Shown here: positions 40,072 to 50,084 of the stretch, one piece after another
Layout: every line of letters starts with the position of its first letter
How positions within the stretch are numbered: the stretch's first letter is position 1
Assembly: GCA_902762785.1 (NCBI GenBank)
Contig: CACWPL010000020.1
Location: forward strand, 1-50,084
Reading direction: 5' to 3'
Length of the DNA stretch: 50,084 nt
Source of the DNA: an uncultured Ruminococcus sp.
GTDB taxonomy: Bacteria; Bacillota; Clostridia; Oscillospirales; Ruminococcaceae
The notes under the pieces: model-generated
Databases searched by the model: none
Told to the model about the DNA's origin: nothing
Seen by the model: the letters and a program-made list of their open reading frames with translations, nothing else
Position numbers and translations under genes: made by a program

Positions 40072-40085
40072 TGCGTCGGCGCCCA

Positions 40086-40690
40086 TTTTCAAGCGAGCTT
40101 TGGGAGATGAACGCCGACCTTTGCCGCGTCAGCGGCATTGGGAGGCGCCTCGCCAGCGCGGGCTAATTATAATGGGGGGCGCCGCCCGCCCGCATGAGTG
40201 CGGGGCTAGACCTCCCTCCGCTGCGCTGCGGTCGGTCACGCCCCGCAGCGGTCGGCTGCCCCCCATACCCCCCGAATTAGCCCAATTAAAATGGGAGGCG
40301 CCTCGCCAGCGCGGGCTCCGCGTCCCGCCCGCATAAGTGCGGGGCGTCCCCGTTTCAAGAGAGCTTCGGGAGATACCTGCCGACCTTTGCCGCGCCAGCG
40401 GCATTGGGAGGCGCCTCGCCAGCGCGGGCTCCGCGTCCCGCCCGCATAAGTGCGGGGCGTCCCCGTTTCAAGAGAGCTTCGGGAGATACTTGCCGACCTT
40501 TGCCGCGCCAGCGGCATTGGGAGGCGCCTCGCCAGCGCGGGCTCCGCGCCGCCCTGCCGCGGTCGGCTGCCCCCCAAGCCCTAATTATAATGGGGGGCGC
40601 CGCCCGCCCGCATAATGGCAGGGCTACACCTCACTTCGCAAGCTCCGTTCGGTCACGCCCTGCCGCGGTCGGCTGCCCCCCAAGCCCCCC
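40086..40690. repeat. Compound repeat region with 113-bp tandem units
   Basis: This is about 600 bp of non-coding, GC-rich repeats. A 113-bp unit containing tgggaggcgcctcgccag recurs at 40292, 40405 and 40518; a diverged copy is at 40139. A second element starting taattataatggggggcgcc occurs at 40164-40270 and 40582-40690. Each unit has strong palindromes (ggcgcc, ccgcgccagcggc). There is no credible reading frame. The block ends just before a regulator gene that lacks its 5' end. Confidence 0.85.
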
Positions 40691-45170: not shown

Positions 45171-45245
45171 GGTCATCTTCTCCTTATCATCACGCGTCGG
45201 TCGACGCGGCAGCTTCATTCGGGCTCTCGCCCTTTCCATGATCCT

Positions 45246-45274
45246 ATGATACCACGAAAACGTTTTCACTGCAA
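45246..45274 (-). promoter_or_regulatory. Lipoprotein promoter containing a cre-like palindrome
   Basis: On the minus strand, TTGCAG (45274-45269) and TATCAT (45251-45246) are 17 bp apart. Between them lies the perfect palindrome GAAAACGTTTTC (45256-45267), close to the catabolite-response (CcpA/LacI-family) consensus. Confidence 0.7.
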
Positions 45275-45292
45275 TCGCCAGTTCGCCGCCGC

Positions 45293-45342
45293 GCTGTTGC
45301 CTAAGCGACACATCCCGCCGCCCTTGTCGCTTAGACGACAGC
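45293..45342. repeat. 18-bp imperfect inverted repeat between divergent genes
   Basis: The arms gctgttgcctaagcgaca (45293-45310) and tgtcgcttagacgacagc (45325-45342) pair over 18 bp, with a perfect 10-bp core and a 14-base loop. No T tract follows on either strand. It may be a regulatory site or RNA structure in the spacer between the lipoprotein gene and the kinase-like operon. Confidence 0.65.
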
Positions 45343-45418
45343 GCAGGGGAGGATCGGCGCCGGGGACGTCCCACGTCCGGCGAAAAGCCGCTCCTCATAG
45401 CAAAAGCATCGATAAGTA

Positions 45419-45447
45419 TTGACAAAAATATGGGCAAGTTGTATAAT
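45419..45447 (+). promoter_or_regulatory. Promoter of the kinase-like/vWA/PP2C locus
   Basis: TTGACA (45419-45424) and TATAAT (45442-45447) with a 17-bp spacer. Confidence 0.85.
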
Positions 45448-45486
45448 TAACATAACACTTGCCTTGTTCTCAACAATGGAGGTGTG

Positions 45487-46137
45487 ATGGAAAACTATTA
45501 CTATGAAAAGCTCACGGAGGAGCAGAGGATCTTCTATCAGGATCTGTGTGAAGGCCTGAGACATCGGGCGGACAAGGTCCCGGCGCCCCCCGGTCTGAAG
45601 CGGAACGCGTTCCTGACGGCCATCGACGCGGTCGTGGTCGAGGGCTATGCCCTAGAGCCTGGCAAGAAGGACTACGGCGGCCACGCATGGGACCTCCGCT
45701 GGCCGCTCCTCCTCGTCACGGAGGAGGACCCCAAGACCGGCGATGTGCTGATCGTGGACAACGACAACGTCTCCGCCGATCGGACGGACAGGAGCACGGT
45801 CATCGGCATGCGGGGCTATATGGCGCCGGAGATCGTGCGCAGCAGGTCCCGGAGCGCGCTGCGAAGCGCGATCCTCATGGGCGATGCGATCGGCGATGAG
45901 GAGGCCAGGAGGGCGGTCCGCGGCTTCGTCAAGGACGGCGACCAGAGCATCGTTGCCGTACAGGACAGCGAGCAGATCATCTCCAGGATCGTCACCGCCA
46001 CGGTGAAGACCATCCGCGGCATCCCGCAGGCCGCGGCCGAGCAGGACGACGCCCCGTCTCCTGCGCCGGATGCGTTTGCATATCCTGCGGGAACGGATGC
46101 CCCGGAGTTCCCCGGCGGCAGCGTGCTGTCATTTTGA
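45487..46137 (+). CDS. Mosaic protein with kinase activation-segment and vWA-tail-like pieces
   Basis: The 216-residue protein is not one recognisable domain. Residues 1-50 (MENYYYEKLTEEQRIFYQ) resemble the start of ruminococcal transglutaminase-like proteins. Residues 83-118 (GDVLIVDNDNV, then GYMAPEIV) match the DFG-equivalent and APE parts of YegI-type Ser/Thr kinases, without catalytic loop or N-lobe. Residues 130-180 (AIGDEEARRAVRGFV, then QIISRIVTATVKTI) resemble the C-terminal end of a TerY-type vWA domain. It cannot be an active kinase. GGAGG precedes ATG 45487; GTG 45484 is an alternative. It leads the operon from a strong promoter. Domain assignments are by eye. Confidence 0.55.
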   Translation: MENYYYEKLTEEQRIFYQDLCEGLRHRADKVPAPPGLKRNAFLTAIDAVVVEGYALEPGKKDYGGHAWDLRWPLLLVTEEDPKTGDVLIVDNDNVSADRTDRSTVIGMRGYMAPEIVRSRSRSALRSAILMGDAIGDEEARRAVRGFVKDGDQSIVAVQDSEQIISRIVTATVKTIRGIPQAAAEQDDAPSPAPDAFAYPAGTDAPEFPGGSVLSF

Positions 46138-46148
46138 GGAGGATGTAT

Positions 46149-47645
46149 ATGCAAGATCATCACTTTCAGATCCAGGATGAAGGACGCAGCGTTTGGATCG
46201 ACGGGCAGTGCTACCAGCCGATCGCGCATGCAGAGCTGCCCGGCTCGATGCGCTGTGCCCAGACCGGGCAGATGGTATTGGTCCATCGTTATCCGGATCT
46301 GACAGGGCCGGAGGTCGAGGCAAAGACCATGCAGATCCTCGGCCGATACTTTCGAGACACCTGCGGCATCAGCCAGATCCGCACGGACCGCGATCGGTAT
46401 ATGGAGGATGCGCGGCGCGAGCTGCGGAGCGCCCGCGACGGCGTCCGCTATCTCGTGCCGGAGGGCATCACGGTCGTCGGGCAGGCGGATGGGATGTACA
46501 GTGTCTACACCTACAGTCGGCTCCCGGCGCAGTTCACCGAGCAGACCCACGTCCTCAGCAGAGTGGTCGCCGCGCAGAAGACGGTCCCTGTGAAGGTGCG
46601 CATGCGCGCGGCGAGGTGGCTCGCGGCCGGACTGGAGCAACTGTATGCACGATTCGGCGGTCAGCTCTACAGCCTCCTGCCGGAGGATGTGCTCGTGGAC
46701 ATCAAGACCGGCGCGGTGTGGCTCGTGCTGGGACGGTGCTTCGTCGCCTCTGACGTGAGCCTGGCGCCCGATCCCCAGGCGCTGTACTACATACGGTGCT
46801 GGGGCACGGAGCCTCTCCCGGAGCATGAGCTCGTGCGGTCCGCGGCCTACTCCTGCTTCCGTCTGCTGCTCGGCGAGGATCCCTATGACGGCAGATACAC
46901 GCTCGTCAACTATCCGCTCCTGACCGAGCGCGTGCTCTGGAGACTGCATCGGGGCATCCTGCGGCCGGAGGACGACAGCGGCGCTGCCGACCGTTTCATC
47001 TGTGGGAGCGCGGTCAACGGGGAGTCGCGGATGATCGGCCACGGCATCCGTGACCGTTACGAGAGGCTCCCGGCGTTCATCAAGGAGCGCTTCCAACAGA
47101 CGCTCGGCGTGCCGGAGCCGTCGATCACGCTCCAGGCGTGGACCAGGGAGATGTGCATGCTGTATGACTGCCTGCTCTGTGACAGTGAAAAGGATCAGTA
47201 CGTCTTCTGGGATCCGGAGCAGGCGCGGCCGCTCCTGTATCTCAAGAACGACAGCGGGTATCAGATCCCGCTCTGGCGCGGCAAGGAGATCTGCTGGTAC
47301 CACATCGGATGCAGCTATCAGGACAGCGTGAACGGCGTCCAGAAGGGCCGCGTCGGTGCGGTCCACATGCAGGGCACCACCCCCTGTCTACAGAACAAGA
47401 CCAACAGGAGCTGGGACGTCGTGGATGCGAATGGCAAGCGGCGGTCGCTGCCGCCGGGCGGCGAGATCCCGCTCTCCCCGCAGATGCGCATCGCGATCGG
47501 CGATGTCTCCTTCGAGGTCGCACACAGCGTCCCTGAAGGACGTGCCGGCTCGCAGCAGATCGCCGATAAGCCTTTGACATACAGCGACCTGCGCGCGCGC
47601 CTCTTCGAGGACGTGTCGAAGTCGGAGGAAGGGGAGACGTCATAA
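46149..47645 (+). CDS. Pseudokinase-like protein with C-terminal FHA-like region
   Basis: The 498-residue protein follows the layout of a YegI-like kinase but lacks the active residues. The N-lobe strand reads VLVHRYPD where the ATP-binding Lys is expected, and GPEVEAK may be helix C. The catalytic loop HRDxKPxN is replaced by YSLLPEDVLVD (174-184), and the DFG by VLG (193-195). A C-lobe-like part continues (SAAYSCFRLLLGEDPYDG, LPAFIKERFQQ). The last 110 residues resemble the beta-rich FHA-like end of such proteins (SWDVVDANGKRRSLPPGG). It may act as a scaffold or sensor. ATG 46149 follows GAGGAGG by 6 bases. Confidence 0.6.
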   Translation: MQDHHFQIQDEGRSVWIDGQCYQPIAHAELPGSMRCAQTGQMVLVHRYPDLTGPEVEAKTMQILGRYFRDTCGISQIRTDRDRYMEDARRELRSARDGVRYLVPEGITVVGQADGMYSVYTYSRLPAQFTEQTHVLSRVVAAQKTVPVKVRMRAARWLAAGLEQLYARFGGQLYSLLPEDVLVDIKTGAVWLVLGRCFVASDVSLAPDPQALYYIRCWGTEPLPEHELVRSAAYSCFRLLLGEDPYDGRYTLVNYPLLTERVLWRLHRGILRPEDDSGAADRFICGSAVNGESRMIGHGIRDRYERLPAFIKERFQQTLGVPEPSITLQAWTREMCMLYDCLLCDSEKDQYVFWDPEQARPLLYLKNDSGYQIPLWRGKEICWYHIGCSYQDSVNGVQKGRVGAVHMQGTTPCLQNKTNRSWDVVDANGKRRSLPPGGEIPLSPQMRIAIGDVSFEVAHSVPEGRAGSQQIADKPLTYSDLRARLFEDVSKSEEGETS

Positions 47646-47726
47646 GGCATCTCGCTGATGCCCGCGGCGGATCCAATGACCATTCTGACAAAGGAGGAAG
47701 TACGCTCAAGGGAGCGGAAATGCATT

Positions 47727-48065
47727 ATGAAAGAGGAACTGATGAAAGTGGAGAGCCTGACTCCGCAGATCGGCGACCTGACCGTAGAGCGTTCCTTGAA
47801 GCTCCTGAACATGTTCTTCATCGTGGATGTGTCGGGCAGCATGGTGACGGACGGCGAGCCGACCCCGCGGGACGACTACCAGCCCGCCCTGGAGCGCCTC
47901 AAGGAGAATGCCTGGTCCCAGAACGCGCAGCGCTTCGCTGTCCTGATCGGCAGGGATACCGTGAACAGTCCGTCCGCCAGAAAGGCGGTCGGCGGCTTCG
48001 GGAGCTTCGACGACTACGGTGACGGGTCCGATGAGCCCCCGACCTTCGGCGGGAAAAACTATTGA
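47727..48065 (+). CDS. vWA N-terminal fragment with MIDAS motif
   Basis: The 112-residue protein begins like a TerY/YegL-type von Willebrand A domain: LNMFFIVDVSGSMVTDG, with the DxSxS MIDAS metal site at residues 34-38. The rest of the domain is absent; the sequence instead continues with polar, Gly/Asp-rich residues ending PPTFGGKNY. The missing vWA C-terminal end appears in the first gene of this locus (45487-46137). GGGAGCGG lies about 10 bases before ATG 47727. It may be a deletion remnant or a small adaptor. Confidence 0.6.
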   Translation: MKEELMKVESLTPQIGDLTVERSLKLLNMFFIVDVSGSMVTDGEPTPRDDYQPALERLKENAWSQNAQRFAVLIGRDTVNSPSARKAVGGFGSFDDYGDGSDEPPTFGGKNY

Positions 48066-48137
48066 TAGGCCCATCTGCGCTGCTCCCCGTGCGATACCGG
48101 GGAGCAGCGGCAGATCACAGGAACGAGAGGATCGAAT

Positions 48138-50084
48138 ATGGACTTCAACTACAAACCATTCTCGAGCTGCCAGGTCGGGGCCTCGCATGTCGAGGCAGGA
48201 AAAGGATGCGAGGACTACGCCGCCGGCTATCGAGACCCGGACGGCCGCTTCTGTATCTCCGTCATCTGTGACGGCCGCAGCGACAGCAACTGCTTTCGGA
48301 GCGCCGCCGGCGCGCGGTTCGGGTGCGAGGCGGGCATCCATGTGCTCACCCGCTTTTTTCAGACATATCACGAGGGATGCGGCGATCTTCCGACGGAGCT
48401 GAAGCTGCGCAGATACGTCGCCCCCTCCATGAGGCGCCTCAAGATGAGCATCAAGCAGTGCTGGGACGACATGGTGGCCCAGGACCTCGCCCAGCACCCG
48501 CTCACGCCAGAGGACATCATGCAGGCACGCAGCAAGGAGGCCCGCGAGGCCTACCAGGCCGGCAAGATGCAGGAGACCATCTACGGTGCGACCTTCCTGG
48601 CGCTCGGCATCTGCAAGGACTTCTTTCTCGCCATGCAGATCGGCGACGGCACGATGCTGGTGATCCAGGAGGACGGCCCGTATGTGTATCCTCTGCCGCC
48701 CGATCCCAGCAGCGAGGACGGCTCGCCTGCGTCGCTGTGTGACGGCGACCTGCTCCGCCGCGAGGAGGCGTTCCGCAGCTATCTCAGCACCAAGCTCCCG
48801 GTGGCGGCGGTCGTCATGTCCGACGGCATCGGCGACTTGGACGAGCTGGATCTGCGCGCTGTGATCTGCAAGGAGCTCCAGACCTGTGCCGCGCAGGATG
48901 ACCCGTCCTCCACGCGCTTCGATCTGCGGCAGCAGGAGCATCTCGACCGCTTCGTCTCCTACTGGACGGGCAAGGACGTGCTCCATAATGATGACTGCTC
49001 GCTGGCCGGATTCTTCCGCGTGGGCGCGGCGATCCCCGAGGTGCGGCTGCTGCCGGACATGGGGGCGGCGCTCCTTGAGAAGGAACGCATCATCTTCAAC
49101 GCCAGGATCGAAAAGCTGGAAAAGGACAAGGCGCTGTGTCTCCAAAAGGTCGAGGAGCAGGATCGGACAGCCGCGATCGCACGCGGCTCTGACTTCATCC
49201 ATCGGCCTGAGCGCGAGCTGCGGTACCTGAAGGAGAAGGCGCAGCTCGAGAACTTCAAGCGCGTCCTGTTCAAGGTCGTCGAGGCCGAGGAGCGGCAGAT
49301 CGACCATCATTGCGGCCGTGTCCGCCTGATCCTGCGCTTCTTGGGGAACGAGGATCAGACCGAGTTCTATCTGAAGAACGAGTCGGCCACGCGGCCTGTC
49401 CCCTTCGACCGGGAGAGATTCGCGCTCGATGAGGACTTTGCGGCCTATATGGCACAGCAGGCGGCCGAGGCGCGCGCCGCCGCAGAGCCCGTCCCGTCGG
49501 ACGATGCCGCAGAGGCCGTCCCATCGGACGAGACCGCAGAGCCCGTCCCGGCGGAGGATGCCGCAGAGGCCGTCCCGTCGGACGAGACCGCAGAGCCCGT
49601 CCCGTCGGAGAATGCCGCAGAGCCCGTCCCGTCGGACGAGACCGCAGAGGCCGTCCCGTCGGAGGATGCCGCAGAGGCCGTCCCGTCGGACGAGACCGCA
49701 GAGTCCGTCCCGTCGGACGAGACCGAAGAGCCCGTCCCGTCGGACGAGACCGCAGAGCCCGTCCCGTCGGACGAGACCGCAGAGCCCGTCCCGTCGGAGG
49801 ATGCCGCAGAGACAGTCCCGTCGGACGAGACCGCAGAGCCCGTCCCGTCGGAGAATGCCGCAGAGCCCGTCCCGTCGGACGAGACCGCAGAGCCCGCTCT
49901 GTCGGACGAGACCGCAGAGCCTGTCCCGACAGACGATAACGCAGAGCCCGTCCCGTCGGACGATGCCGCAGAGCCCGTCCCGTCGGACGACACCGCAGAG
50001 CCCGTCCCGTCGGACGAGACCGCAGAGACCGTCCCGTCGGACGAGACCGCAGAGCCCGTCCCGTCGGACGAGACCACAAAGGCC
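48138..50084 (+). CDS. PP2C-like protein phosphatase with acidic repeat tail (runs off the window)
   Basis: This predicted metal-dependent Ser/Thr phosphatase is open at the window's end (649 codons seen). PP2C motifs appear in order: GKGCEDYA (Asp26), ICDGRSDS (Asp45-Gly46), YGATFLALGI, MQIGDGTMLV, VVMSDGIGD and NDDCSLAGFF. The metal-binding Asp residues are therefore present, although the usual DGHG is DGRS. A helical linker (about 310-420) with coiled-coil character leads into 22 nine-residue repeats of the type AEPVPSDET (from about residue 449). It belongs to the YegK/TerY-P-type phosphatases by motif and context. GAGAGGAT precedes the ATG. Confidence 0.82.
   Translation, partial: MDFNYKPFSSCQVGASHVEAGKGCEDYAAGYRDPDGRFCISVICDGRSDSNCFRSAAGARFGCEAGIHVLTRFFQTYHEGCGDLPTELKLRRYVAPSMRRLKMSIKQCWDDMVAQDLAQHPLTPEDIMQARSKEAREAYQAGKMQETIYGATFLALGICKDFFLAMQIGDGTMLVIQEDGPYVYPLPPDPSSEDGSPASLCDGDLLRREEAFRSYLSTKLPVAAVVMSDGIGDLDELDLRAVICKELQTCAAQDDPSSTRFDLRQQEHLDRFVSYWTGKDVLHNDDCSLAGFFRVGAAIPEVRLLPDMGAALLEKERIIFNARIEKLEKDKALCLQKVEEQDRTAAIARGSDFIHRPERELRYLKEKAQLENFKRVLFKVVEAEERQIDHHCGRVRLILRFLGNEDQTEFYLKNESATRPVPFDRERFALDEDFAAYMAQQAAEARAAAEPVPSDDAAEAVPSDETAEPVPAEDAAEAVPSDETAEPVPSENAAEPVPSDETAEAVPSEDAAEAVPSDETAESVPSDETEEPVPSDETAEPVPSDETAEPVPSEDAAETVPSDETAEPVPSENAAEPVPSDETAEPALSDETAEPVPTDDNAEPVPSDDAAEPVPSDDTAEPVPSDETAETVPSDETAEPVPSDETTKA
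49482..50075 (+). repeat. 22 tandem copies of a 27-bp repeat in the phosphatase gene
   Basis: Units of 27 bp encode variants of A-E-P-V-P-S-D-E-T (for example AEAVPSDET, AEPVPSENA, AEPVPTDDN). There are no frameshifts, because the unit is a multiple of 3. The protein tail is acidic, Pro-rich and probably extended. Such arrays change length by recombination. Confidence 0.92.

Follow-up and report, generated by a model that had tools for sequence, protein, structure and literature searches.

The question raised by the end of contig C20 from an uncultured Ruminococcus sp. is whether its last four open reading frames (ORF1 to ORF4) are the remains of a phospho-signaling operon, or whether some of them still work together as a phosphatase and a pseudokinase. 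The window analyzed here is the whole of this contig (50,084 bases), which belongs to a draft genome of 62 contigs that is 92% complete, and the four ORFs occupy its forward strand from position 45487 to the contig end, with spacings of 11, 12, and 72 bases when the start of ORF2 is taken as the ATG at 46149. A set consisting of a kinase, a PP2C phosphatase, and a vWA protein is encoded by yegI-yegK-yegL in Escherichia coli. In TerY-P modules, following the summary given in PMC11090510 (citing Anantharaman et al. 2012), a TerY-like vWA protein and a PP2C are combined with a Ser/Thr kinase that bears a zinc ribbon, and variants with an OB-fold kinase act against phages according to the brief accounts of Gao et al. 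2020 in PMC11090510 and PMC7699616. We propose, with a probability of roughly 0.45, that the locus is an extra, fast-evolving TerY-P operon in which ORF1 and ORF3 are in-frame deletion products, and in which ORF2 and ORF4 have been kept and would be able only to erase phosphorylation. The initial annotation had recognized vWA, PP2C, and kinase pieces in four consecutive genes, which profile homology bears out, and had offered a degenerate locus or a phosphatase-pseudokinase system as alternatives; degeneration fits ORF1 and ORF3 better, and the pairing is possible for ORF2 and ORF4. The whole case comes from one draft genome.

The kinase-like protein is ORF2, of which residues 84-458 align to a TerY-P kinase profile built from 30 sequences (hhalign E = 1.4e-11), with 20-24% identity to the aligned kinases. 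In the alignments, Ser replaces the catalytic Asp and the DxDN motif has no counterpart, whereas both are present in 51 of the 51 kinases compared, a set preselected by likeness and length. The loss of catalytic residues that had been claimed for this protein thus holds for the Asp and DxDN and is alignment-dependent for the β-3 Lys: K59 may be this residue, since alignment A1 places it there, but alignment A4 and the comparison with the 51 kinases do not. The first CxxC pair of the zinc ribbon is kept (C341, C344), and the alignment shows a gap in ORF2 where the second pair would lie. Taken together, the hhalign result and the comparison of catalytic motifs support the earlier reading of ORF2 as a pseudokinase of TerY-P origin. 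Its N-terminal 83 residues show no similarity to kinases (for residues 1-130, 45 of 200 shuffles scored equally well) and have a mean predicted local distance difference test score (pLDDT) of 58 in the predicted model. At the other end, residues 401-460 reach a pLDDT of 83-94 by block, and in Foldseek the C-terminal part resembles several FHA structures (E = 1.7e-4 to 1e-3, target template modeling score up to 0.69), with no Pfam match, such that the predicted C-terminal domain looks FHA-like.

ORF4 belongs to the PP2C phosphatases by Pfam (PP2C_2, E = 4.1e-18) and by hhalign against a PP2C profile (residues 3-296, E = 8.2e-27), and retains all of the metal-binding Asp residues (D26, D45, D170, D229, D285, and D286, with eight PP2Cs aligned). 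It forms the longest branch in a tree of 34 PP2Cs, where its placement is unsure owing to that length, and a search of the PP2C profile against solved structures returned no matches. The contig ends inside its repeat tail, and the same 27-nucleotide repeat opens contig C41 (C41:1-433, locus L133; 88%), with the sole other match covering 40 bases on contig C8. On C41, a repeat peptide of the ORF4 type continues to a stop at C41:821 with a non-repeat tail. ORF4 is therefore probably completed on C41, which would link the two contigs, this link being drawn from the repeat and not from reads. Inspection by eye of the ORFs of this 19-kb contig revealed no kinase, vWA, or PP2C; an intact kinase downstream of ORF4 was thus considered and rejected for the C41 ORFs read.

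By homology, the succession of ORF2, ORF3, and ORF4 follows the canonical order of kinase, vWA, and PP2C, with ORF1 as an extra gene in front. ORF3 corresponds to a vWA protein that has lost its middle: the first metal motif (DVSGSM) abuts the third (VTDGEPT), with 0 residues between them against a median of 96 in 41 vWAs, the median being used because at least one vWA gave a false match to the motif pattern (minimum -42). The homology itself is seen by hhalign (E = 1.8e-7 for residues 62-102 and 1.2e-4 for residues 46-65). The mean identity of the segment is 35.2%, and two of the 41 vWAs lie lower, perhaps through such false matches. The complete vWA metal site (DxSxS ... T ... D) is not found, and structure prediction with 15 vWAs in the alignment gave no confident fold (pLDDT 45.3, predicted template modeling score 0.18), making a normal vWA domain unlikely. 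The structural check that had been suggested for these proteins thus yielded an FHA-like end for ORF2 and no confident fold for ORF3. We note that the kinases and vWAs used in these comparisons were chosen by their likeness to canonical ones.

ORF1 is a chimera. As had been annotated, a kinase activation segment sits in this separate gene, at residues 82-124 (hhalign to the TerY-P kinase profile, E = 1e-12), its best genome match being a 447-aa kinase frame (E = 3.0e-6, 58% identity). The mean identity of the segment to 44 kinases is 53.3%, while each of these kinases compared to the rest gives 59.2-74.2% (five of 49 kinases were dropped as the pattern was unmatched); the segment is thus further from them than any of them is from the others, as expected once a role in a kinase has been lost. 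A following stretch resembles ORF3 (0 of 200 shuffles equally good) and gives no significant similarity to vWAs directly (21 of 200 shuffles equally good, and nothing from hhalign and a further search), from which ORF1 probably holds a piece of a second vWA. The claim of a split vWA domain therefore stands as regards the pieces, but the domain is not simply cut in two, since ORF3 holds both ends and the scrap in ORF1 is visible only through its likeness to ORF3. A possible model for two vWA scraps at one locus is a triad in genome G002 (L048:3153-4914), in which two tandem vWA genes lie between the kinase and the PP2C. The first 82 residues of ORF1 match only themselves in 38 genomes of the genus, and ORF1 has no match in the viral contigs searched. 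Two candidate origins for its ends were rejected: an N-terminus from a transglutaminase-like gene finds no support in the 38 genus genomes (a separate comparison gave one 36-residue match, E = 0.02), and the likeness of its C-terminus to an oxidoreductase-like protein of 501 aa (E = 1.2e-5 in a small library, 33% over 83 aa) was put down to chance because the rest of the two proteins is unrelated.

The same genome also encodes an intact canonical triad on contig C13 (kinase frame 487 aa, vWA 268 aa, PP2C 319 aa). Queries with type-B kinase and vWA proteins gave long matches in the assembly on C13 only, the remaining matches being the C20 pieces and a partial kinase match (26%) in a 791-aa frame on C5. 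Compared to a TerY-P triad, the C20 locus has the same three protein types in the same order, with the PP2C metal ligands kept, but ORF2 is without the catalytic Asp, the DxDN motif, and half of the zinc-ribbon Cys, the vWA is without its middle, the PP2C is altered in its DGHG motif, and the chimeric ORF1 is added. We judge it to be a TerY-P-derived locus and not a TerY-P triad because three defining features of the triad that were tested are lacking. The set of vWA, PP2C, and kinase is likewise shared with the anti-phage TerY-P modules, in which, to go by their published descriptions, the kinase carries an OB-fold rather than the FHA-like end of ORF2. In the PADLOC models, ORF2 to ORF4 have no match and ORF1 reaches only E = 0.03-0.04; this is a weak test, as the canonical vWA and PP2C of genome G033 also have none and the G033 kinase was picked up by other kinase models.

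Taking these observations into account, we propose that ORF1 and ORF3 are products of internal in-frame deletion that would provide no working kinase or vWA domain, and that ORF2 and ORF4 would still be kept as proteins. ORF4 would act as a metal-dependent Ser/Thr phosphatase and ORF2 as its noncatalytic partner, the pseudokinase and FHA-like domains of which may hold or recognize targets. Phosphate would be added by the intact TerY-P kinase of contig C13, in which case the C20 operon could only erase. If ORF2 and ORF4 do work in this way, this would be a TerY-P operon that has kept its phosphatase and lost kinase activity, and the noncatalytic role of the kinase would be selectable on its own.

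The strongest competitor, which we consider a realistic though less probable explanation, is plain decay, in which a second TerY-P copy is dying as a whole, and ORF2 and ORF4 are simply the parts that have yet to break. The deletion-like ORF1 and ORF3, the unusual divergence of all four genes, the retention of the operon by no relative, and the redundancy that follows from an intact triad on C13 all agree with decay. There is also a precedent, as the TerY-P clusters of Helicobacter pylori are, in the account given by PMC4978471, all incomplete through internal deletion and gene disruption; as described there, those clusters are set apart by lying in a larger island, whereas on C20 the reading frame is preserved across the deletions and a full-length-like pseudokinase stands in place of the kinase. 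Under decay, the locus would be one more eroding TerY-P module, as in H. pylori. Against this explanation, none of the four ORFs contains a stop or frameshift, the promoter in front matches the consensus in full, and codon use is coding-like throughout, with in-frame scores of 0.43 for ORF1, 0.34 for ORF2, 0.40 for ORF3 (read from a frame shifted by one base), and 0.53 for ORF4. These compare with 0.21-0.74 for 14 reference ORFs (three of them doubtful genes, with an opposite-strand score that is higher in two and about equal in one) and with -0.59 to -0.27 in the six frames of the upstream gap. The chance of an open frame if randomized is ~1.0e-6 for ORF2 and 4.2e-6 for ORF4 up to its repeats (443 codons), compared to 0.003 for ORF1 and 0.03 for ORF3, and out of 2000 Markov sequences each, the numbers staying open were 0, 0, 16, and 44, respectively. 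That ORF2 and ORF4 have diverged so far and yet remain open suggests that both frames are under selection. The corresponding case for ORF1 and ORF3 being kept is a weak one; both would be explained by recent deletions that left the frame intact.

Several points weigh against the proposal that ORF2 and ORF4 are kept as a pair. The phosphatase, annotated as intact, is so with respect to its metal ligands, but it reads DGRS where seven of seven aligned relatives have DGHG. The His of this motif is thought to be a general acid in some PP2Cs, and phosphatase activity of ORF4 is thus predicted as likely, not certain. The conserved gene order in relatives that would have spoken for a real system was not recovered: ORF2 finds only itself among 38 genus genomes, itself and seven partial matches, all weak (E = 7.2e-5 to 6.1e-3), in the 396 family genomes, and itself and one weak partial match among 394 order genomes (the three draws overlap), with no orthologue in any of them, nor does it match viral contigs or, as a single query, genome contigs. 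Because no relative carries the operon, selection on ORF2 and ORF4 cannot be measured. Open frames are moreover weak evidence in a GC-rich genome, as the Markov counts for sequences like ORF1 and ORF3 illustrate, and the argument presumes that the locus could already decay when its divergence took place; a phase of fast evolution, with loss only recently, would leave the same picture. Finally, a maintained protein would likewise be expected to show three joins that all keep the reading frame.

An improbable third explanation is a four-part minimal system of sensor and eraser, in which the C13 kinase would phosphorylate the detached activation segment of ORF1 in trans as a bait, ORF2 would bind it, and ORF4 would reset it. 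ORF1 does supply the segment that is missing from ORF2, Ser/Thr residues included, the four ORFs are open and coding-like behind a single promoter, and an FHA-like domain is in place on ORF2; yet such a system is conserved nowhere among the genomes searched, each of the 44 kinases has a better conserved segment than ORF1, and ORF3 has no predicted fold. Very unlikely indeed is the collapse of a normal locus during short-read assembly, for although the draft is in 62 contigs and C20 breaks inside a repeat, direct repeats in 45174-49470 are short (31 nt at most, at 77%, for the best 20 of 22 families), full-length kinases and vWAs of this type occur in the 92%-complete assembly on C13 only, and misassembly is not expected to give three in-frame joins.

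Table 1. Features of the TerY-P-derived locus on contig C20.
Feature	Position	Strand	Description and basis
Promoter	45419..45447	+	sigma-70-type, TTGACA-17-TATAAT, 12/12 consensus matches, upstream of ORF1
ORF1	45487..46137	+	216 aa (ATG start); kinase activation segment between a unique N-terminus and a probable vWA scrap
ORF1 orphan kinase activation segment	45727..45855	+	DNDN ... GYMAPEIV, without catalytic loop; hhalign, genome hit
ORF1 stretch resembling ORF3	45847..45927	+	probable vWA scrap; shuffle test against ORF3
ORF2	46149..47645	+	498 aa; predicted pseudokinase related to TerY-P kinases, FHA-like C-terminal domain
ORF2 FHA-like C-terminal beta domain	47235..47528	+	residues 363-460; predicted structure, Foldseek
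ORF3	47658..48065	+	135 aa from first ATG, later in-frame ATG at 47727; vWA without its middle
Strong hairpin	48071..48121	+	between ORF3 and ORF4, within their 72-base spacing
ORF4	48138..50084	+	PP2C domain, linker, 27-nt repeat tail; open at contig end
27-nt tandem repeat	49480..50075	+	22 copies, in frame within ORF4, up to contig end

As for the wider distribution of such genes, 28 of the 38 genus genomes have PP2Cs like ORF4 at a threshold of 1e-5, as do 64 of 396 family genomes at 1e-12, this genome being counted. A scan of genome contigs with alignment A1 gave at least 21 loci with 20-25% identity to ORF2; its pattern (DLN..G.FF) cannot find pseudokinases, and the scan is thus no evidence of their absence. 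Kinase, vWA, and PP2C occur together at 14 of the 21 named loci, and seven are without one or two of them in the stretch seen, where gene content was read by BLAST of greedily chosen ORFs, such that some genes may be hidden, at loci chosen by catalytic motif. Solitary kinases stand in the family loci L084 and L088. The residue five positions after the catalytic Asp is usually Asn in kinases; in 20 of the 51 kinases compared it is Gly, as seen in type A TerY-P kinases (e.g., L042:2918-4291). No open-access paper was found that describes TerY-P together with a pseudokinase, subscription journals being outside the scope of this search.

The surroundings of the C13 triad resemble those in genome G033 when judged by eye, as a leucine-rich-repeat-like gene precedes the triad in both, and a gene related to the downstream gene of G033 follows the C13 triad after one extra gene. 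This gene behind the canonical triad (L042:6307-7497 in G033 and, by eye, L040:8907-11024 in this genome) has a cytidine deaminase-like N-terminus and a long low-complexity tail. The resemblance in L042:6307-7497 (dCMP_cyt_deam_1, E = 3.7e-4) lies below the curated cutoff, and the gene is a possible partner of the canonical triad. In genome G036 (L094:1-5029), a TerY-P-related kinase is followed by several proteins that appear TerD-like by eye, from a motif.

Of the noncoding features on C20, the promoter is one site seen in the region where shuffled sequences lead to an expectation of 0.7 at a threshold of nine of 12 matches; the interval given in the initial annotation starts with it. The hairpin between ORF3 and ORF4 has a folding energy of -35.1 kcal/mol (z = -3.96, 0 of 200 shuffles equally good) and no T run, and no good second copy was found in the genome, with weak partial matches at E = 0.69 only. 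Further upstream, 40082-40690 is a noncoding-looking repeat patch with a 113-nt tandem unit in 2.3 copies at 99%, surrounded by related copies of 83, 59, and 49 nt.

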